Virus record (IMG/VR): IMGVR_UViG_3300047476_000111
Location: 1-20,645 of that record
DNA: 20,645 nucleotides
DNA from: a virus
Strand: one strand, 5' to 3'
The notes below the pieces were generated by a model. That model was not told where the DNA came from. It saw nothing but the letters and a program-made list of their open reading frames with translations, and did no database searches. The position numbers were made by a program, and so were the translations under genes. Shown here in pieces: positions 1 to 19,784 of this stretch. Position 1 is the stretch's first letter. Every line of letters starts with the position of its first letter.

Positions 1-509
1 ACGCAAACCCCAGCACCGCCACCGCCGCCAATTGACTGCGTTGCAGTTACACCAACAGCTCCTGCGCCGCCGCCGCCACCGGCAGGACCAGCAAACCCAC
101 TTGAGCCAGCACCACCATTATTACCTTGCCCTAGTACCCCTACGCCGCCTGGATCAACGACGGAATTAGTGTTTGAACCGCCACCACTTCCTCCAGTACC
201 GCCCACTGATGCTGTTGTCCTACCCCCACCGATAGCAGTTATGCTTCCAAAAACTGAGTTTGATCCAGCGGTTGAATTTCCATTAACTGATGTCCCCGCG
301 CCGCCAGCTCCAATGGTTACAGTAAGAGCAGATCCTGGCGTAACTTGAAATCCAGTTGCTTGGAGAACACCTCCAGCACCGCCACCTGAACCATTACCAC
401 TGCCCCCTGCACCACCAGCAACAACAAGATACTCCACCGTAGTGGTTTTCTGGTCGGTTAGCGGGTTAAAGGTCGCTGATACAAAGCCGCCTAAATTTTG
501 ATTACTCAT
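1..509 (-). CDS. Glycine-rich tail fibre/adhesin, copy 3 (partial, runs off left edge)
   Basis: An open frame starts with ATG at 509 behind AAGG with 7-base spacing and stays open to the window edge, so about 169 residues are visible and the C-terminus is missing. After an N-terminal segment (residues 1-24) comes VEYLVVAGG, then Gly-rich tracts. It shares the VTPG/LTVTIGAGG and NSVFGSIT blocks found in the two genes upstream in the operon, so it is a third tandem paralogue. Glycine-rich modules of this type occur in phage tail-tip adhesins and fibres; a host-contact role is inferred from family and position. The first residues (MSNQNLGGFVS) differ from the sisters, so the attachment end may be individual to each copy. 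Confident as a gene, moderate on exact role. Confidence 0.85.
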   Translation of the reverse strand, partial: MSNQNLGGFVSATFNPLTDQKTTTVEYLVVAGGAGGSGNGSGGGAGGVLQATGFQVTPGSALTVTIGAGGAGTSVNGNSTAGSNSVFGSITAIGGGRTTASVGGTGGSGGGSNTNSVVDPGGVGVLGQGNNGGAGSSGFAGPAGGGGGAGAVGVTATQSIGGGGGAGVC

Positions 510-518
510 GTCTGTGCC

Positions 519-2057
519 TTAAAAAGTAATCGAACCAGAAGATGTCCATGTGTACACACGGTTCTTATAGCCAAGACCTGTTGCGAAGGGGGAGAGTTGG
601 TTCCATGTAAGACCCGCCCCAGGATTATTTCCAGGAACAAAACTGTTTGCAGAAGAATCAGCAAGGTAAGCGCCAGAATTTGCATTTAATAACAAAGATG
701 TTCCAGACACCGCAGTTAAAGGCGCAGTAGGAACAGTGAAATTTGACGTATAAAGCGCAGTACCTTTTACAATCCGGACGTTTGTTGCATTACCTGTCCA
801 AAAGTATGAAGTAGCACCATCACTAAAAAATGTTGGTCCAGGATTTCCACAGATATAGTTTGTAGTGTCTGTCCAAGTAGAACCTTCTTGCACTCCGTTT
901 ATAAACATTTTGGTGCTTGTACCACTACGACAAATAACAAAATGAAACCATGAACCGTTTGGAATAGTGTTAGTAGAAGTAATCCGAGTTGCTGTATCTA
1001 CGTAGTAGTACATTTTGTTATCCGTATTTTTAAAGATATACGGATACGCGCCATTTAATCCAGGCCTAAAATCAAGCGGGATCATTAGCGTCCCAGATGT
1101 TGTCGTATACAACCACATCTCAATTGTGAAATCTCCAGTACCAAACACAAAAGCAGACTGCCCAGCGTACCTAAAACTTGTTGCCCCATTTAAAGACAAA
1201 CTCCCCGATCCTGATGTGCTTACCGTAGGCGATCCAGTAGTTGATGCTGCGGCTTGGTAAATGTCTGGGTAGGAAAGGATGACAATACCGGAACCGCCAG
1301 TACCGCCATTAGAACCCCATCCGCCAGCACCACCACCGCCTGTGTTTGCAGTTCCATTTCCAGTTGCGTTCGTATAAACAGTATTTGTACTTCCACCGCC
1401 ACCAACCCCACCAATTCCGCCTGGTGTTCCAGTAGAGCCAGCAGCCCCACCAGAACCTCCGCCAGCATAAGCGGTTCGTGTTCCAGAGATATCTGAGGAG
1501 ATTCCTGCACCACCGTTTCCAGCAGTAGAGGTTATCGTAAGGCCCCCTGCAGTCCCAGCACCTCCCCCACCGCCAGATGTATAGGGTTGCCCAAAAGCAG
1601 ATGTAGTCACACCGCCGTTATTTCCTTGTCCAGAAGTGCCAGATCCCGGAAATCCATTTGGATAGGTGGCAGAATATCCACCTGCAGAACCACCCCCAGA
1701 ACCGCCACTTGCTCCGCTTGAATATGCGTTGGTAGTTACGGCATTCCAACTACCGCCTCCCCCACCGCCAACAGCAGTAAGACTCCCAAAAACAGAATTG
1801 TTCCCAGAAGAACCTCTAGATGCTGCTGCAACTCCACCGCTCCCCCCACCACCAATAGTTACGGTAATTGATGCTCCAGAAGTAACGGGTATATTTCCTT
1901 GCAATAATCCACCAGCACCACCACCAGCGCCTGATCCACCACCACCGGCGCCACCAGCAACAACGAGGTAGTCAACATTCACAGGCTTTTGATTAGACCA
2001 AGCGCCTTGAGTTAGTGCCTGATTAACCTGCTTTAATGAAAAAACTCCGCTAGGCAT
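519..2057 (-). CDS. Glycine-rich tail fibre with LamG-like lectin domain, copy 2
   Basis: 512 residues; ATG at 2057 follows GAGG with 6-base spacing. Residues 1-27 form a distinct N-terminus, then VDYLVVAGG opens a Gly-rich region to about residue 270 with ITVTIGGGG and NSVFGSLT blocks shared with its neighbours. From about 277 to 480 the composition changes to a laminin-G/concanavalin-like jellyroll pattern: SLSLNGATSFRYAG, then DFTIEMWLY, then WFHFVICRSG, then KMFINGVQEG, then NVRIVKGTALYTSNFTVP. The last 14 residues end in VYTWTSSGSITF, matching the C-terminus of the sister gene at 2066. Such domains commonly bind carbohydrate, so this is a candidate receptor-binding protein; binding itself is inferred. 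It is separated from the genes on either side by fewer than 10 bases. Confidence 0.9.
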   Translation of the reverse strand: MPSGVFSLKQVNQALTQGAWSNQKPVNVDYLVVAGGAGGGGSGAGGGAGGLLQGNIPVTSGASITVTIGGGGSGGVAAASRGSSGNNSVFGSLTAVGGGGGGSWNAVTTNAYSSGASGGSGGGSAGGYSATYPNGFPGSGTSGQGNNGGVTTSAFGQPYTSGGGGGAGTAGGLTITSTAGNGGAGISSDISGTRTAYAGGGSGGAAGSTGTPGGIGGVGGGGSTNTVYTNATGNGTANTGGGGAGGWGSNGGTGGSGIVILSYPDIYQAAASTTGSPTVSTSGSGSLSLNGATSFRYAGQSAFVFGTGDFTIEMWLYTTTSGTLMIPLDFRPGLNGAYPYIFKNTDNKMYYYVDTATRITSTNTIPNGSWFHFVICRSGTSTKMFINGVQEGSTWTDTTNYICGNPGPTFFSDGATSYFWTGNATNVRIVKGTALYTSNFTVPTAPLTAVSGTSLLLNANSGAYLADSSANSFVPGNNPGAGLTWNQLSPFATGLGYKNRVYTWTSSGSITF

Positions 2058-2065
2058 TTAGCACC

Positions 2066-2944
2066 TCAGAAAGTAATTGTCCCTGACGATGTCCAAATGT
2101 AGACGCGCCAGTTATCGTATGTGTATGTTTGTGGAGAACCTGTTGTTGCAGCAGCCGGAGCGTAAAAAGATGGGTAACGAATAATTACAACCCCTGATCC
2201 ACCCGCCCCACCTGGCTGATTTGGTGCGCCAGAACAAGTACCACCTCCACCACCACCGCCCGTATTAGCAAATCCTGGAGAACCAGCGCCATTACTGACT
2301 GCTCCAGCAGCGCCACCACCTCCAGCCCCAGGAAGCCCAACAAAACTTAGACCGCCCGCACCAGTATACGCACCGCCACAGCCACCGCCAGCGTAAAAAA
2401 CATTGGTTCCGGTTATGTCAGATGCAAAACCTGTTCCGCCCGATCCTGTAATGGCAGGTGTAGTAGTTAAACCTGCTGAACCGGCACCACCTCCACCACC
2501 TCCGGAAAAACCATTGTTTCCATTTCCCCCGCTGTTGCCTTGTCCGACAGTTCCAGCTCCAGGGTTTGCATTATTTCCTAAAGAGCCGCCACCAGAGCCT
2601 CCCACTGCCGCAGATCCCGCTCCAGCATAAGTATCACCACCTCGACCACCACCAAGTGTCGTAATGTTTCCAAATACTGAATTTGATCCGTTTGTTGCAG
2701 CAGTAGATGAAGCAACAATACCGGCAGCTCCTCCGGCTCCAATTGTTACGGTAAGTGCGGTTCCCGGCGTGACAAGGTATCCAATGGCGGCGAGCAAACC
2801 ACCAGCCCCACCACCACCGCCACCATTTCCAGAACTAGCGGCTGTGCCACCGCCACCACCTCCAGCAACAACAAGGTACTCAACCGATGGAGTCGGTTGT
2901 TTTTGCGAGGCAGATAGCAATCCGCCGTTATAACGAAGTCCCAT
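2066..2944 (-). CDS. Glycine-rich tail fibre/adhesin, copy 1
   Basis: I chose the ATG at 2944 (292 residues), which follows AGGAG with 7-base spacing and begins MGLRYNGGLL. The longer frame, open to 2980, would overlap the upstream gene by 25 bases without a comparable ribosome site. VEYLVVAGG starts at residue 21. Long Gly/Ala/Ser tracts with GTALTVTIGAGG and NSVFGNIT blocks follow, and the protein ends AAATTGSP, then VYIWTSSGTITF. It lacks the LamG-like domain of copy 2 but has the same hinge and the same terminal tag, making it the simple version of the fibre. Glycine-rich loops in phage tips can form polyglycine-type lattices that display receptor-binding loops; that role is inferred here. 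Confidence 0.88.
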   Translation of the reverse strand: MGLRYNGGLLSASQKQPTPSVEYLVVAGGGGGGTAASSGNGGGGGGAGGLLAAIGYLVTPGTALTVTIGAGGAAGIVASSTAATNGSNSVFGNITTLGGGRGGDTYAGAGSAAVGGSGGGSLGNNANPGAGTVGQGNSGGNGNNGFSGGGGGGAGSAGLTTTPAITGSGGTGFASDITGTNVFYAGGGCGGAYTGAGGLSFVGLPGAGGGGAAGAVSNGAGSPGFANTGGGGGGGTCSGAPNQPGGAGGSGVVIIRYPSFYAPAAATTGSPQTYTYDNWRVYIWTSSGTITF

Positions 2945-4036: not shown

Positions 4037-5134
4037 TTAAGCTGCTACGTCAATCTCTTCCCAGTCTGGTACCTGGGCGTCATTAATCTGTGTCCAATTA
4101 GGCGTCTGCGAATCATTAATCACTGACCACCCCCCAATTTTTACTGTTCCTACTGCGCCAACTGCGCCAACTCCAGTAACAAACTCTATGTCGTCTATCT
4201 TAAAGCCAACATTACCAACTGCGCCAGTACCAACCACATTTGGTACAAACGGCTGAACCACCGTCGTAACTGCACTAACCGCTCCTGTACCGCCCACCCC
4301 AGTAACTTCGTAGTTACTGTTAATCATGAAGGCTACAGCCCCAACTGCCCCAATGCCCTCTACGCCTACCGGTACAACATAGTCACTAATGTCTACAGCG
4401 ACGTCACCTACTGCCCCAGTACCTTCAACGCCGGTTACCGCGTAGGCTACTTGCGGTACCGCATCGCCAATTTGTCCTAGACCTTCAACCCCAACCGGGA
4501 TTACGATCCGTCCAATACGTACGTTGACGTTACCTACTTCTCCAACACCTTCTACGCCAACCGGGACAATAGTCTCGCTAACACTAGCAACTACATCACC
4601 TACGGCTCCAGTACCCACAACTCCAGGAACCACAAACGAAATGGCGGGAGTAGTAGTTCCAACCTGCCCTGTACCTTCTACTCCTGTAGGTACAAGGTTT
4701 TTACTCAGACTGAAGGCTACAGTTCCTACTTCACCTGTACCAACAATCGGTATTGCATCTGGTACAACAATATCGTCAACCTGCACAATGAAGCCGCCAA
4801 CCTCAGCGACTCCCTGTACCCCATTTGGCGCATGCGCCACTAACGGGGTTGTTGTTCCTACTGCTCCAGTACCCTCAACTCCGGATACTGTGTAAGAAAT
4901 AGCAAAGGTTACTGTTCCTACTGCCCCGGTGCCTTCTACTCCTACCGGAACAACCGCCTTGCTAATTCCTATTGTTACTGTACCTACTTCACCTGTACCG
5001 GAAACCGAGATTGACCCAGTTCCCCACGGCGATACACCCCAACCCTGACTACCCCAGCCGTCGAGCGGGACTACAACTGAAGCGCCGCCCCAGTTAGTAG
5101 ATCCCCACCCTTGTTCGCCCCAGCCGGTCGCCAC
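4037..5134 (-). CDS. Trp-rich virion protein with about 14 GTGAVG-type repeats
   Basis: 365 residues beginning at a GTG (5134) preceded by TAAGG with 7-base spacing; an ATG two bases upstream is in another frame. There are three parts. Residues 1-40 hold two Trp-rich units (GWGEQGWGSTNWGG and GWGSQGWGVSPWG). Residues 45-335 hold about 14 imperfect repeats of 20-22 residues of the form G-T-G-x-V-G-x-V followed by a beta strand and PVGVE. Residues 336-365 hold three W-x-x-I-x-D-x-Q-x-P units. The pattern predicts a long repetitive beta fibre with special end caps. Position between the adaptor region and the fibres suggests a tail appendage or spacer. I recall similar proteins in aquatic phages but no defined function. 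Confidence 0.85.
   Translation of the reverse strand: MATGWGEQGWGSTNWGGASVVVPLDGWGSQGWGVSPWGTGSISVSGTGEVGTVTIGISKAVVPVGVEGTGAVGTVTFAISYTVSGVEGTGAVGTTTPLVAHAPNGVQGVAEVGGFIVQVDDIVVPDAIPIVGTGEVGTVAFSLSKNLVPTGVEGTGQVGTTTPAISFVVPGVVGTGAVGDVVASVSETIVPVGVEGVGEVGNVNVRIGRIVIPVGVEGLGQIGDAVPQVAYAVTGVEGTGAVGDVAVDISDYVVPVGVEGIGAVGAVAFMINSNYEVTGVGGTGAVSAVTTVVQPFVPNVVGTGAVGNVGFKIDDIEFVTGVGAVGAVGTVKIGGWSVINDSQTPNWTQINDAQVPDWEEIDVAA
4130..5002 (-). repeat. Protein-level tandem repeat array (about 14 units)
   Basis: About fourteen units of roughly 60-75 bases encode the motif (E/V)GTGAVG(T/D)V plus a strand and a (V)PVGV linker. Unit 4 is longer (about 25 residues) and units 4, 12 and 14 are degenerate. DNA identity between units is only moderate, with different synonymous codons, so the array looks old and selected at protein level rather than recently amplified. 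Changes in repeat number would alter fibre length. Confidence 0.85.
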
Positions 5135-11897: not shown

Positions 11898-12809
11898 TTA
11901 GGCAGCGCCCGGTGAACCGAACACGCCAAGCGGATCCGACCAGCCGAAGCTATAACGCTCACGAGCCTTGTAACGTACGTTACCGGTGTCAAAGTCACCG
12001 TCCATGGACTGAGCCAGGGGCGTACGAACAAAGTGCTTGAGACCGTTAGGAACGTCGGTCGTCAGGAACCATGCGTCTGTATCCGTCAAGAAGTGGTTAA
12101 CGGCATATCCCTCGGGGATAGAACCGTTGTTCTTCAGTGCATTGATGTCGTTATCGGCAGTGCCAACACGCAGCTCGGTCTCAAGGATTCGAGTTGCAAC
12201 GAACATCAGTGACGGGGGAACAATCAGCTTCTTGGGCTTAGCAGCGATGAGCAGACCACGCTCGTCCGTCCAGCCAGCGATCTGAATAACGGCGGCTTCC
12301 AAAGAAGTCTCGTTCAGGTCGGCAGGTGTGGAAGGCTCGTTACTGTTAACACCACCGGAAACCAGAGGATGCTGAGTCGAGAAGAGCTCAACGCCGTCAC
12401 CACCGGGGTAGTTAGACGAGAAGCCGTTATTCAGGACGGCAGCAGCTTTAGTCTGCTTGGTGTAAGCCATAGCACGAGCCAGAGCCTTGGTATAACGAGC
12501 CGAAAGGCTGTCATACAGGTTGTCCTCGATTGCCTCTTCCGTGAGGGAGAAGCCCAGGACGATGGTCTCGTGGTTATAGCGAGCGGTCCATGCCTCTTGT
12601 GCATTGTCATAAGCCATGGCAGCGCCTTCGGCCTTGACTGGTGCAGCAGAGAAGCCAGACAGCTTCGTTTCTTCTTCGAAGGAACGCTCGGAGCTTTCGG
12701 TCTCGAAAATCTCCTTGTGCTCTTCGCCGTAACGTGCGTACTCCATACCGAACAACGCGTTCAGGCCTGGGAGCAGCTCTTTCAGTAGTTGTGCGCGTGA
12801 AATAGCCAT
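11898..12809 (-). CDS. Major capsid protein (Mu gpT-like, HK97 fold expected)
   Basis: 303 residues; ATG at 12809 has AAGGAG upstream with 8-base spacing. The protein opens with a helical MAISRAQLLKELLPGLNALF, then an acidic helix. The NHETIVLGFSLTEEAIEDNL and LARAMAYTKQTKAAAVLN blocks form the spine-helix region. The middle carries LSTQHPLV-like and ADLNETSLEAAVIQI segments, and the C-terminus reads RERYSFGWSDPLGVFGSPGA. That closing pattern and the length fit Mu gpT-type major head subunits. No protease gene is seen upstream, so cleavage of the N-terminus is not suggested. The terminator directly downstream and the strong ribosome site fit a highly expressed product. Confidence 0.9.
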   Translation of the reverse strand: MAISRAQLLKELLPGLNALFGMEYARYGEEHKEIFETESSERSFEEETKLSGFSAAPVKAEGAAMAYDNAQEAWTARYNHETIVLGFSLTEEAIEDNLYDSLSARYTKALARAMAYTKQTKAAAVLNNGFSSNYPGGDGVELFSTQHPLVSGGVNSNEPSTPADLNETSLEAAVIQIAGWTDERGLLIAAKPKKLIVPPSLMFVATRILETELRVGTADNDINALKNNGSIPEGYAVNHFLTDTDAWFLTTDVPNGLKHFVRTPLAQSMDGDFDTGNVRYKARERYSFGWSDPLGVFGSPGAA

Positions 12810-14937: not shown

Positions 14938-15348
14938 TTATGCGCGACTAATGCCGCGAGGATCTTCTACAACCCCCTCAACACTGTCGTCGTTGATGAT
15001 GCGGAACTCGCGTCCGTGGATTTTTACCCGTGTACCAGCATGAGGTCTGACAAGTACAAAGTCTCCCTCTTTACACCAGGGTCCGCTTGGGAAGCGGGCG
15101 GTGTCCTTGTAGCAATCCGGACCCATCTTGATTACAAACAGGACAGTAGTCAGTAACTCTTCGTGTTGCATCGTAATGTCTGCTTTCACGATACCGCTGT
15201 CGTATCTGTTCTCGATATCAGGCAACGCACACAAGATGCGATAGCCCGAAGGATCGGGAAGCTGCTTGGCTTTTTGTTCGGCTGTTTCGGGTAAAACAGT
15301 GGAATCTTCTGGGTTATCGGGGTTTGTGCCGATAAGAAGTTCACTCAT
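14938..15348 (-). CDS. GroES-like co-chaperonin
   Basis: The start is set at ATG 15348 (136 residues, MSELLIG), which overlaps the upstream stop by 8 bases; the frame runs further to 15399 but that part is shared with the neighbouring gene. Residues 35-127 form a GroES-type beta barrel: YRILCALP, then YDSGIVKADI where GroES has its GGIVL mobile loop, KEGDFVLVRPHAGTRVKI, and DDSVEGVV as the last strand. Such proteins cap the host GroEL ring, as T4 gp31 does, and help fold the phage capsid protein. Position in the procapsid block supports that. It differs from cellular GroES by a loop insertion before PSGPWCKEGD and an N-terminal extension of about 34 residues. Confidence 0.85.
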   Translation of the reverse strand: MSELLIGTNPDNPEDSTVLPETAEQKAKQLPDPSGYRILCALPDIENRYDSGIVKADITMQHEELLTTVLFVIKMGPDCYKDTARFPSGPWCKEGDFVLVRPHAGTRVKIHGREFRIINDDSVEGVVEDPRGISRA

Positions 15349-15529
15349 CTGAATCGTCCATCCTTTCTTTGAGGTCGTTGAGTTTGGACTGCGCGACAAG
15401 AAGACCTCGGATCTTCCCGCACAGGTGTTGATACTCGGCGTAATCCTTGGCAGACCCTGCTGCCAAGCTCTCTTTAACTGCTTCCATATCCTCTCTCAGT
15501 TGCGCTGAGAGATAGTCAAATGCGTCCAT
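15341..15529 (-). CDS. Small helical protein between portal and co-chaperonin
   Basis: 62 residues, ATG at 15529 sharing a base with the portal stop (TAATG). It is predicted almost entirely alpha-helical: FDYLSAQLREDMEAVKESLA, then AKDYAEYQHLCGKIRGLLVA, then a charged end (LKERMDDSDE). One Cys at residue 37 and a repeated pattern of small residues suggest a helical hairpin. I recall small proteins of this type next to portals in other phages, but not a tested function. Coupling on both sides argues for a needed, low-stoichiometry product. Confidence 0.78.
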   Translation of the reverse strand: MDAFDYLSAQLREDMEAVKESLAAGSAKDYAEYQHLCGKIRGLLVAQSKLNDLKERMDDSDE

Positions 15530-18024
15530 TATTCACCTTGTTTGGGGGGTGTATTTCTGTTTTGCATGCTTTGAGCAATCTGTACGCCTAAACGTGTGCC
15601 CTCAAGTTCTTGCTTGAACTGTTGGTCAATCTGTCCACGTTCAATATCCACTCCAAGTTTTGTTCCTTCAATTTCGCTCTTAAGGGCCAAGTTCTCCATG
15701 GCCTGACGTTCTTGCGATGCGATTCGCTCCTGCTCAACCTGGATCTGTGCGGCCTTGAGCTGTGCATCAACCTGATCTTTCTGGGCCTTGCGTTGCTGCT
15801 CGGCTGCTTTGATCTGGAGTTCCTGCATCTGCATCTGGATGATCGGATCCTGAGCCTGCTGCTGAGCCTGTGCTTGTGCGGCCTGCTGCTGATTCTTAAG
15901 CGTGAGGTTCTGTGCAGCCTGAGCCACGAGACGAGACAGTGCTGTCTCCATCTCTTCGGACATCTGCTCATCTTCCTTCACAGTCGGCAGAGGTGCGCCA
16001 ACTTGCTGCTCGATCATATTGCGGTACATAAACCCGTAGTGCTCTGCGATGTGCGCTTGCATACCCGCTGCCATCTGAGGTGCCATGGGGTTTTGCCCGA
16101 TCATCTGAGCGGTCATGGGATCGCGCAGGAAAGCCAAGTGAGTAGCGATGTGAGCCTGATGATCCTGGTATGCGAAGGCTTTCAATGGCTTCATGCGAAG
16201 CATATCCATGTTTTCGCTGATCGGATCTTTGGGCTTCTGGTCATCCTCAATCGGCACGAGCTTCTGTGCGTTCTTAATCCCTAGCACATCCAGCATCTGC
16301 CGATGCAGTTGTGGCAGGTTATAGAGCTGAGGTGCTGTCTGAGCCAACTGGAGCGCTGCCTGATACTGAACAACCTTCTGCGACATAGTTGCCGCGTTGG
16401 GATCAGAGACAGGGATAACATCTACTGCATCGTAGTCGGACTTCTTAGCTGCGGGTGTGCCTTCTTCTGGCTCATATGAATACTCTTCCGGAGTGTAGTC
16501 ACGGATGATTGCTTTCAGGAGTTTGAACTCCTGCTTCATGGAGTAGTGGATACGAGCTTGAACTGCTGACATCACCTTTAGCGTACGCTCAAGGATCGCT
16601 AACGTGGTTCCCACTGGCGATTGAGCAGACATGTCGCTGACCTTGAGATCAGCCGCAGAAGCGAACCGACGGCCCTCTTCAACGATGGTGCCCAACAGAG
16701 AATACAGAACCTGACTTGGCTCCTTGTAAGGGAGCGGCATGATGTTGTCTTTGATCGTGCCTGATGCTACATCCACGTCCCGCCATTCCGCCGGGGAAAT
16801 TGGTGTGTCATCGCCCTTAACTCTAAGCCCCTTAGTCTTGAATCCTCCAGGCAGGTTTGACAATGTGCCAGCATCGACCAACTGGCGTATAAGGCTAGTC
16901 CCAGACTTAGCAAAAGCACCAATAAGGTGGATAAGACCAAAACAGTAAAACCCAAAACCCGGAACGTAACCGTAGTGGACGAAATGATTCCTCTTCGTTT
17001 TAAGTTCGTCATCAGGATGCCAATTTCTCCGTATTGCTAATACAGTCTGCGTAGATTTCTCAATAGTTACAACGTAAGGCAGAGCGATTCCCGTCTCCTT
17101 ACCATCTTCATCTTTGTCCTCATGCCCATCAAGATCAAGATACACGTGCATCTCAATAATCTTGTAGCGGTCATCCGTCGTTGCACGGAAGCCCATCTTC
17201 TCAGCGATCTTCTTCTCTACTTCATCGAAGGTATCGCTTGGCGTGCCCAACTCAATGTCGCGGTAGAACCCAGCTACTTGTAGACGACGCAGCTCGTTCT
17301 CGGTCTTGCGCATCACATGTGATACACGCTCAGAAGTCTCAAGTGATGAGGCTCCGTAAGGGACCACGATATCTTCTGCAGGAACAAACAGCGACACCTG
17401 ACGGTCCAGTGACGGGTCGAAGTACACCTTTTTGAACGCGTTACCAGCCAGTCCCAGACCCCAAAGCATGCGCTCATGCTCAGGGCGGTACTCAACCATC
17501 TTCTCGGTCAACTGGAAGTTCATATCAGCCTGCACACGCTGTGCGGCATCACGTGCTTCTGGAGTCTCTTTACCGATGATCTGAGTCTTTACAGGACCAG
17601 ATGCGGGGAATGTCTCCATGATTGTCTCGGACTGGAACCGGATCAATGCTTCTGACAACATGGGGTGGTAGACACCGCAAGCTCCAGGCCAGGGTTCCGT
17701 ACGATCTTCAATTTTCATACCCAGAAGCTCAAGACCGTCAACGTAGGTCTGCATCCAGTCCTTACGCGAGTCGATGTCGCTCTGGAAGTCGCCCAGCAGC
17801 TCTGTAGCCAGTACAGTTAGCTCGCTGTCGTCCATGCTCTCGGCTAGGTTGGCGTTGAAATCATCCTCAGCCTCGCCTTTTTCTATCTCAATCTCGATAT
17901 CACCAATGCCAAGCTTTACTGACTCCGGATCCTCGATCTCGATCTCAATAGCAGGCTCTTGGGACATCACCTCATCCCCGATTAGCCCTAGCGGTGCCTG
18001 GTTTACTGCCTTCTCAATTGCCAT
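15529..18024 (-). CDS. Portal protein with long Gln-rich coiled-coil C-terminus
   Basis: 831 residues, ATG at 18024 overlapping the upstream stop by one base. Residues 1-70 are strongly acidic (EIEIEDPESVKLGIGDIEIE). The body contains the portal core, with RTEPWPGACGVYHPML, a GLGLAGNAFKKVYFDPSLDR segment and a long helical stem near PLPYKEPSQVLYSLLGTIV then RRFASAADLKVSDM. Residues about 687-831 form a Gln/Ala/Lys-rich coiled coil like the barrel of P22-type portals, with EGTKLGVDI and EGTRLGVQI as a short repeat. It would form the dodecameric vertex for terminase and adaptors. Length is large for a portal, mostly due to the barrel. Very confident. Confidence 0.92.
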   Translation of the reverse strand: MAIEKAVNQAPLGLIGDEVMSQEPAIEIEIEDPESVKLGIGDIEIEIEKGEAEDDFNANLAESMDDSELTVLATELLGDFQSDIDSRKDWMQTYVDGLELLGMKIEDRTEPWPGACGVYHPMLSEALIRFQSETIMETFPASGPVKTQIIGKETPEARDAAQRVQADMNFQLTEKMVEYRPEHERMLWGLGLAGNAFKKVYFDPSLDRQVSLFVPAEDIVVPYGASSLETSERVSHVMRKTENELRRLQVAGFYRDIELGTPSDTFDEVEKKIAEKMGFRATTDDRYKIIEMHVYLDLDGHEDKDEDGKETGIALPYVVTIEKSTQTVLAIRRNWHPDDELKTKRNHFVHYGYVPGFGFYCFGLIHLIGAFAKSGTSLIRQLVDAGTLSNLPGGFKTKGLRVKGDDTPISPAEWRDVDVASGTIKDNIMPLPYKEPSQVLYSLLGTIVEEGRRFASAADLKVSDMSAQSPVGTTLAILERTLKVMSAVQARIHYSMKQEFKLLKAIIRDYTPEEYSYEPEEGTPAAKKSDYDAVDVIPVSDPNAATMSQKVVQYQAALQLAQTAPQLYNLPQLHRQMLDVLGIKNAQKLVPIEDDQKPKDPISENMDMLRMKPLKAFAYQDHQAHIATHLAFLRDPMTAQMIGQNPMAPQMAAGMQAHIAEHYGFMYRNMIEQQVGAPLPTVKEDEQMSEEMETALSRLVAQAAQNLTLKNQQQAAQAQAQQQAQDPIIQMQMQELQIKAAEQQRKAQKDQVDAQLKAAQIQVEQERIASQERQAMENLALKSEIEGTKLGVDIERGQIDQQFKQELEGTRLGVQIAQSMQNRNTPPKQGE

Positions 18025-18260: not shown

Positions 18261-19784
18261 TTAATAATACGGCTCGCGGTGCCGTCTAAATTGTATGGGT
18301 TCATCTTCTTCGTCAAGAAGCGTGCGTATATAGCCACCCTTGCGGAACCGCATGAGCGCTAGAGAAACCGAGTCCACATAGTCATCATGATCGCCTGCGG
18401 GGAAAGATGCAACCTCCTCCACGACTTCTTCCGCCCAGTGTGTGTTCGGAACCCACACCCTCCCGGATGCGAACAGGTCTGACACGGCGTTTAAGCGAGA
18501 TATCTTGTCGTTACCCTTAGATGGGGTGAACTCCTGTACCGGAATACCCATGGCCCGCATCTCGTATATGAGTGGAGCGCCCGAAGCCTTCTTCTCGATG
18601 ATCACCGAGTCCGGATCCCACTCCTTGTACTGCTCGATTGCGCATTTCTTTAACTCTGGGAACTCCATCCGGTCCCTAAACGCGTTGAGCATGATGATAT
18701 TTGCCTGGTTTACCCCCGTGTCATCCGGTTGGTAGAACACTCCCCAGGTAGTACATGCAGAGTAGTCGGCCCGGTTGGACTTCTCGAACGCCGTATCCCA
18801 GGCCATCAGCGTAAATTCACAGTACGGAGGGTCGTCATGCTCCCAGATCTGCCACCACTCCCTCTTTACAATAGCCGAGGAGTCCGATGTGGGCTGCTGC
18901 TGGTACTGAGCCATCCACTTCCCATGCGGAAGTTCTTTCTGGAGCGCTTCTAGCTCAACCCTAGGCCAAAACTGAGGCCAAAGCGGCTTCCCAGACGGGA
19001 GAATTGCCGGAAACTCGATCACTTCCCACTCTTCCCCAGACCTTTGCCCCGCAGCCTTGATGACCTGCCCGGTCAGATCCCGTTTAGACCACCGAGTCAT
19101 CACGATTATGATCGCTCCCCCCGGCTGTAGACGCTGACGAGGCCCGGATGTGTACCACTCGTACGTCTTGTCGTAGATCTCAGGGTTAGTTTCTGCCTGC
19201 GCAGCCTCTTGTTCCGAGTGCGGGTCGTCAATTATGAGGATGTCAGCGCCTTTACCGGTCACCGCACCGCCCACACCGATAGCGAAGTACTCACCGCCAG
19301 CGTTTGTAGCCCATCGACCCGCCGCTTTAGAGTCCGCTTGGAGCGCTACCTTAGGAAAAATCTCCCGGTAAGCCTCCTGATCCACCAGATTTCGGACTTT
19401 TCGACCAAATCCAACAGCCAGCTCCGCCGTGTGGGACGTCTGGATCACCTTTTTGTTGGGGAATTTGCCCAGAAACCAAGCCGGGAGCAGGTATGAGGCG
19501 AACTCTGACTTTGTATGACGGGGTGGCATGTTGATAATCAGGCGCTTTACTTTGCCCTCAGCCACCCTCTCGAACGCCGCAGCCATCTTTGCGTGGTGTG
19601 CGCCATGGATAAAGTTAGGCCAGACCTTTTTCACGAACTCCATGAAGGACTGTTGTGCCCGCTCAGCACTCTTGCGGTCCTCCAACTCCTCCACCAGCTC
19701 ATAGACCTTGGCCTTTACACTGGGAGGAAGCTGTTTGAGGACGTCAGGATTCTTCCTGATCCGGTCCAGAAGATTCTGGTTCAC
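18261..19784 (-). CDS. terL: Terminase large subunit (packaging ATPase and nuclease)
   Basis: 507 residues from GTG at 19784, preceded by AGGGAG with 5-base spacing and lying inside the small-subunit gene (41-base overlap). The ATPase half has a Walker A-like loop PPRHTKSE (87-94; K92, S93), Walker B DILIIDD (181-187) and a coupling motif MTRW (229-232). The RNase H-like nuclease half has MAWD (D330), VIIEKKASG (E397) and DHDDYVDS (D467, D468, D471). These residues fit the large terminase of headful- or cos-type phages; the type cannot be told. It works with the small subunit and portal to translocate and cut DNA. Length is normal for the family. Confidence 0.95.
   Translation of the reverse strand: MNQNLLDRIRKNPDVLKQLPPSVKAKVYELVEELEDRKSAERAQQSFMEFVKKVWPNFIHGAHHAKMAAAFERVAEGKVKRLIINMPPRHTKSEFASYLLPAWFLGKFPNKKVIQTSHTAELAVGFGRKVRNLVDQEAYREIFPKVALQADSKAAGRWATNAGGEYFAIGVGGAVTGKGADILIIDDPHSEQEAAQAETNPEIYDKTYEWYTSGPRQRLQPGGAIIIVMTRWSKRDLTGQVIKAAGQRSGEEWEVIEFPAILPSGKPLWPQFWPRVELEALQKELPHGKWMAQYQQQPTSDSSAIVKREWWQIWEHDDPPYCEFTLMAWDTAFEKSNRADYSACTTWGVFYQPDDTGVNQANIIMLNAFRDRMEFPELKKCAIEQYKEWDPDSVIIEKKASGAPLIYEMRAMGIPVQEFTPSKGNDKISRLNAVSDLFASGRVWVPNTHWAEEVVEEVASFPAGDHDDYVDSVSLALMRFRKGGYIRTLLDEEDEPIQFRRHREPYY

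Follow-up and report, generated by a model that had tools for sequence, protein, structure and literature searches.

An exchangeable LamG-like domain in the joint of a glycine-rich, putative fibre or adhesin protein of uncultured freshwater phages

Fibre-gene cluster and genome setting

The stretch of DNA analysed here (the window) is the 20.6 kb record of an uncultured virus, a freshwater phage whose terminase large subunit is closest to those of Dishui Lake phage DSL-LC04 (58%), phage 023Pt_psg01 (55%) and the pelagiphages HTVC027P and HTVC023P (53 and 51%). Three glycine-rich genes, A, B and C, lie in tandem at its left end, each scoring above the Gly_rich_2 (PF21722) cut-off, and in relatives the tandem order is A-B-C-D. 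The genes referred to in the text are listed below.

3..509, minus strand: gene C, third glycine-rich paralogue, cut by the window end; PF21722; N-terminus matches the C-type gene of locus L004
519..2057, minus strand: gene B (copy 2), putative glycine-rich fibre/adhesin subunit with inserted LamG; open reading frame of 512 aa; PF21722 and PF13385 both above cut-off
2066..2944, minus strand: gene A (copy 1), LamG-less paralogue; PF21722; model pLDDT 85, pTM 0.85
11898-12809, minus strand: major head protein
15529-18024, minus strand: portal
18261-19784, minus strand: terminase large subunit

By homology, gene A starts at the ATG at 2944 (MGLRYNGG) and not at an upstream TTG. The product of gene B is taken, within an overall explanation that we consider probable, to be a tail-fibre or adhesin subunit belonging to a set encoded in tandem, and its presence in particles is assumed from gene position. 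A repeat check gave no support for a tandem-repeat origin of the cluster. Neither a megablast search of the whole window nor a tblastn search of the LamG-less copy, both against named phages, returned matches; in these searches the glycine-rich sequence was probably masked by the BLAST low-complexity filter.

Two further genes of the window were noted. Upstream of the fibre cluster (4037-5134, minus strand) is a 365-aa protein with degenerate GVEGTGAVGTV-type repeats of period ~66 nt, for which a Pfam search gave no match; the corresponding place in DSL-LC04 is occupied by a 376-aa hypothetical protein. Between the portal and head genes (14938-15399, minus strand) lies a phage-encoded GroES-like co-chaperonin (phrog_3188, E 8e-11), whose Pfam Cpn10 score of 17.4 bits is under the 21.1 cut-off of that family.

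Anatomy of protein B

Protein B can be divided into five parts, given here with the DNA stretch that is replaced in a LamG-less relative.

1980..2057, minus strand: N-terminal cap, residues 1-26, MPSGVFSLKQVNQALTQGAWSNQKPVN type, putative attachment part; conserved among B-type genes; helix 8-16 in the model
1266..1979, minus strand: glycine-rich/TNF-like head core, about residues 26-264; PF21722; model of the homologous A matches Pam3 fibre 7ypx, Z 13.7
1212..1265, minus strand: hinge, residues 265-282, YPDIYQAAASTTGSPTVSTS; 75% mean identity; exchange boundary
573..1211, minus strand: LamG module, residues 283-495; PF13385; LamG/pentraxin fold, Z 19.6
555..1227, minus strand: stretch swapped for 31 nt in the syntenic LamG-less locus L117 (blastn boundaries)
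522..560, minus strand: closing strand, the 'tag' of the first-pass annotation, residues 500-512, RVYTWTSSGSITF; tail 86% mean identity; strand pair in models; mutually exclusive with an N-terminal strand

The cap may serve in attachment. The head matches PF21722 with 67.6 bits (cut-off 24.3) over profile positions 15-225 of 226. The N-terminal positions 1-14 of the profile are unmatched here, where matches begin at 15-16; in heads with an N-terminal strand the match begins at 3-7. Residues 303-431 match PF13385 (Laminin_G_3) with 43.9 bits, above the curated cut-off of 27.6, and among A, B and C the LamG occurs in B only. In a model of B made with 24 sequences (mean pLDDT 72, LamG parts >90), residues 283-495 form a complete LamG/pentraxin (ConA-like jelly-roll) fold, with the PAPP-A LamG as best match (Z 19.6, 2.9 A over 199 residues) and pentraxins and neurexin/laminin LNS domains as further matches.

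The profile score and the predicted fold agree with the first-pass annotation, which had proposed a LamG-like domain in this protein. It had placed the insert at residues 277-480; LamG is found there, and the module is slightly longer, at residues 283-495 (about 213 aa). As also claimed, the flanks of the insert are preserved in a gapped alignment of A and B, which pairs AAATTGSP with AAASTTGSP and VYIWTSSGTITF with VYTWTSSGSITF and leaves a single long insert between them. The two results that the annotation had named as speaking against its reading, a missing LamG match and a hinge and tag not conserved around the insert, were both checked for and neither was found.

Occupancy of the joint across relatives

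The first set of relatives was found using LamG-containing peptides, and head-only scans were added against this bias; the scan with A4 confirmed at least 27 loci. In the first set the joint was short in 30/30 A genes and 27/27 C genes, and it held a LamG in 24/24 B genes, ruling out a recent LamG acquisition in the source phage alone. Since all 24 close B genes carry it, the LamG event must be older, and the comparison of copy 1 with copy 2 is one between paralogues.

With the head-only scans, which were the source of the LamG-less B-type genes and of an empty site in L117, the set grew to 307 glycine-rich heads. A short joint followed by the closing strand was found in 201 of these (exactly 35 aa in 167) and a LamG in the joint in 42, while 25 end at the core, 21 continue into another head, 12 carry long extensions of other kinds and six are cut by contig ends. 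D-type genes have a short joint, a LamG at the same joint (L004, L021) or a second head.

Other arrangements were also seen. L015 carries an additional LamG ahead of the head, and L020 and L032 are similar by sequence. In L110 (46-3250) a SPRY + DUF7483 block follows the closing strand, rather than a LamG preceding it, and L096, L132, L151 and L183 have tails similar to this block after the closing strand. In L193 (2970-4652) the same joint of a B-like head is again occupied by LamG, and the protein ends in NRVYKFTSSGTITF; the contig is binned as a Woesearchaeota MAG and may be of phage origin and mis-binned.

Gain, loss and exchange of the LamG

Among the 24 B-type proteins, mean pairwise identity is 57% in the N-cap, 52% in the head, 75% in the hinge, 32% in the LamG and 86% in the tail. 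LamG identity is unrelated to that of every other part (Mantel r 0.14 for head, -0.01 for N-cap, 0.06 for hinge and 0.05 for tail), whereas the two flanking parts, hinge and tail, co-vary (Mantel r 0.58, p 0.0005). Individual pairs are mosaic in both directions. The head is kept and the LamG differs in L008/L030 (head 95%, LamG 32%) and L005/L044 (87% and 26%); the LamG is kept and the head differs in the window and its nearest relative L004 (LamG 95%, head 55%) and in L009/L013 (99% and 60%). In these four pairs DNA identity shifts sharply at the hinge and a second time at the tail.

Gain or loss is seen at the empty site. L117 has the gene order A-B-C-D of its relatives, and in its B gene ITTTGGFRIYKWTSSGSITF comes immediately after the hinge YQAAASTTGSPT. 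Over this joint the window is 642 nt longer, with 673 nt (555-1227, blastn boundaries) against 31 nt in L117, and the frame stays intact. As judged from these sequence comparisons, the joint is a genuine module boundary, at which the LamG has been gained, lost or exchanged independently of the rest of the fibre. The annotation's proposal that a module was gained or lost at a defined joint, both flanks being preserved, is thus upheld by the independent exchange, the sharp DNA boundaries, the empty site and the D-type genes with and without LamG. Its argument from copy 1 versus copy 2 needs correcting: the two copies diverged as paralogues long ago, and comparing them is by itself no proof of gain or loss; it is L117, a LamG-less orthologue with an empty site, that shows the gain or loss to be real.

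A LamG that diverged in place under strong selection, with no exchange, would account for a hypervariable domain present in 24/24 close B genes. Near-identical LamGs beside very different heads, and the reverse, as well as the lack of relation between LamG identity and every other part, make this reading very improbable; unless they are chimeric, the pairs L009/L013 (LamG 99%, head 60%) and window/L004 (LamG 95%, head 55%) contradict it. Every sequence compared is indeed a metagenomic contig with related repeats, as a chimera reading of the mosaic pairs needs, but 42 distinct genes drawn from many samples share this in-frame architecture and its boundaries, and assembly artefact is for us a scarcely credible source of the mosaics.

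In L009/L013 and window/L004, the adjoining genes A and C show the same pattern, with conserved gene ends and a divergent glycine core, which suggests from sequence that their glycine cores are exchanged too.

Fold of the head and the closing strand

Among known structures, the A head model matches the Bxb1 tail tip (Z 13.9) and the tail fibre gp24 of cyanophage Pam3 (PDB 7ypx; Z 13.7; 31% identity; 2.7 A over 174); a weaker match is the ALK/LTK glycine-rich domain (Z ~5). By homology to the A model, the B head would also be of Pam3 type. A PDB sequence search with the glycine-rich profile gave no matches, and a phmmer search gave composition-type chance matches only. In Pam3 gp24 the strands lie lengthwise in the fibre, and its distal tip is made of the glycine loops; the authors of that structure propose this tip as the receptor site (PMC9608196). 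Like A, gp24 has a TNF-like plus glycine-rich head, with a variable distal tip; it differs in being without LamG and in ending where the A/B core ends, the modelled protein stopping at Pro280 with no C-terminal closing strand modelled (PMC9608196).

The last residues of the A model are an ordered strand pair (pLDDT ~90); in the B model the closing strand is poorly predicted (pLDDT ~50). An N-terminal strand of the WTAPxGAT type is present in 25/25 heads without the C-terminal strand and in 0/243 heads having it. A first, narrower motif for the N-terminal strand found 12/25, and the wider one was chosen after inspecting those 25, so that the 0/243 side is the informative one; the 25 heads, moreover, belong mostly to one gene clade and do not represent 25 independent events. 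At the syntenic position DSL-LC04 has two heads, both with the N-terminal strand and no tag. In distant microbial contigs a tag-like motif stands before the core in L196, L198 and L200 and after it in L191, L192, L194, L195 and L199.

These models and motifs suggest that the last 12 residues of B are probably a strand of the TNF-like/glycine-rich head and not a separate tag, as the first-pass annotation had them; the ordered strand pair in A and the equivalent N-terminal strand of tag-less heads speak against that description. The head would then be circularly permuted, with one sandwich strand contributed by either the N- or the C-terminal end. Compared with DSL-LC04-type heads, and probably with the Pam3 head too, that of this family appears to be such a permuted form. 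With the strand suppliable from either end, the LamG in B would be inserted inside the head and not appended to it.

Comparison with known systems

A literature search of open-licence papers found no paper on a LamG joint in a glycine-rich head. The T-even adhesin gp38 (S16 type) is a glycine-rich tip adhesin in which variable segments are swapped between conserved glycine motifs; it differs from B in having a beta-helix, not a TNF-like base, and no LamG module in the joint. That adhesin is compared in PMC9608196. The architecture of B has already been deposited as A0A6J7WA22 (uncultured Caudovirales phage, 493 aa), which is 48% identical to B over its full length and is annotated in the database as 'Concanavalin A-like lectin/glucanases superfamily' but uncharacterised, the literature search having turned up no work on it. 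DSL-LC04 (OR003939) has the glycine-rich WJZ48128.1 at the syntenic position and a separate nearby protein, WJZ48124.1, with six LamG stretches; it differs in that the strand of its heads is N-terminal and no LamG is inserted in them. The closest working parallel is evolved Dit with inserted carbohydrate-binding modules, which likewise has a sugar-binding domain within an adhesion scaffold (PMC8540738). The Dit scaffold is of belt/galectin type, whereas that of B is Gly_rich_2/TNF-like, so that B would work like evolved Dit without being a member of that group. The LamG joint is a further form of known adhesin modularity.

Proposed mechanism and function

The explanation that we consider probable as a whole combines a permuted Pam3-like head, a LamG in its joint, independent exchange and an auxiliary sugar-binding role. 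The B head would have the fold of Pam3 gp24, with beta-strands basal and glycine loops at the distal tip, and the sandwich strand RVYTWTSSGSITF would be supplied from the C-terminus. The link from the last glycine loop to this strand would by topology lie at the head base, where an inserted domain could be tolerated, and in B genes a LamG lectin would fill it. Recombination within the conserved hinge and closing-strand DNA, the route that we infer for the exchange seen in the sequences, would swap the LamG without disturbing either the reading frame or the closing strand.

The LamG would then be an auxiliary, lateral carbohydrate-binding domain, giving each subunit two exchangeable binding surfaces, the glycine tip and the LamG. 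Sugar binding at the head base is suggested by the fold and the variability of the domain together with the topology of Pam3, and would probably serve as a second grip on the host surface. An added or swapped receptor specificity, as the first-pass annotation supposed, is plausible, since hypervariability and exchange fit it, and an effect on host range may follow. We would tentatively go further and suppose two permuted head forms in which the base-side joint before the closing strand is a socket for lectin cassettes recombined independently of the tip, and hence two separately evolving host-binding surfaces per fibre.

Two other readings of the architecture were weighed. The protein might be a plain series of head, hinge, LamG and separate C-terminal tag, the tag being an independent trimerisation or chaperone-docking element and the LamG having been placed ahead of it, distally. 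In favour of this, no part is more conserved than the tail (86%), which is of low confidence in the B model; but the ordered strands of the A model (pLDDT ~90), together with a motif found before the core in some heads and after it in others, and mutually exclusive with the N-terminal strand, make a serial arrangement unlikely. Alternatively, the LamG could serve purely for spacing or packing and take no part in receptor binding. This would suit its placement, as deduced from Pam3 topology, towards the base and away from the tip, and a conserved sugar site that is putative at most; an outward binding surface better fits the most variable part of the protein (32%, against 52% in the head, 75% in the hinge and 86% in the tail), which is freely exchanged, and a purely structural role seems to us improbable. 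The auxiliary sugar-binding domain within a permuted head is therefore the reading that we prefer.

A strand suppliable from either domain end, if true, would account for the conserved C-terminal motif [WF]TSSG[ST]ITF of many phage proteins. The precise, sequence-recognisable exchange joint lends itself to searching metagenomes for host-recognition modules and provides domain boundaries for binding assays. If the proposed explanation is true, phages of this uncultured freshwater group change host recognition in two independent ways within one protein, through the glycine tip loops and through the LamG lectin.
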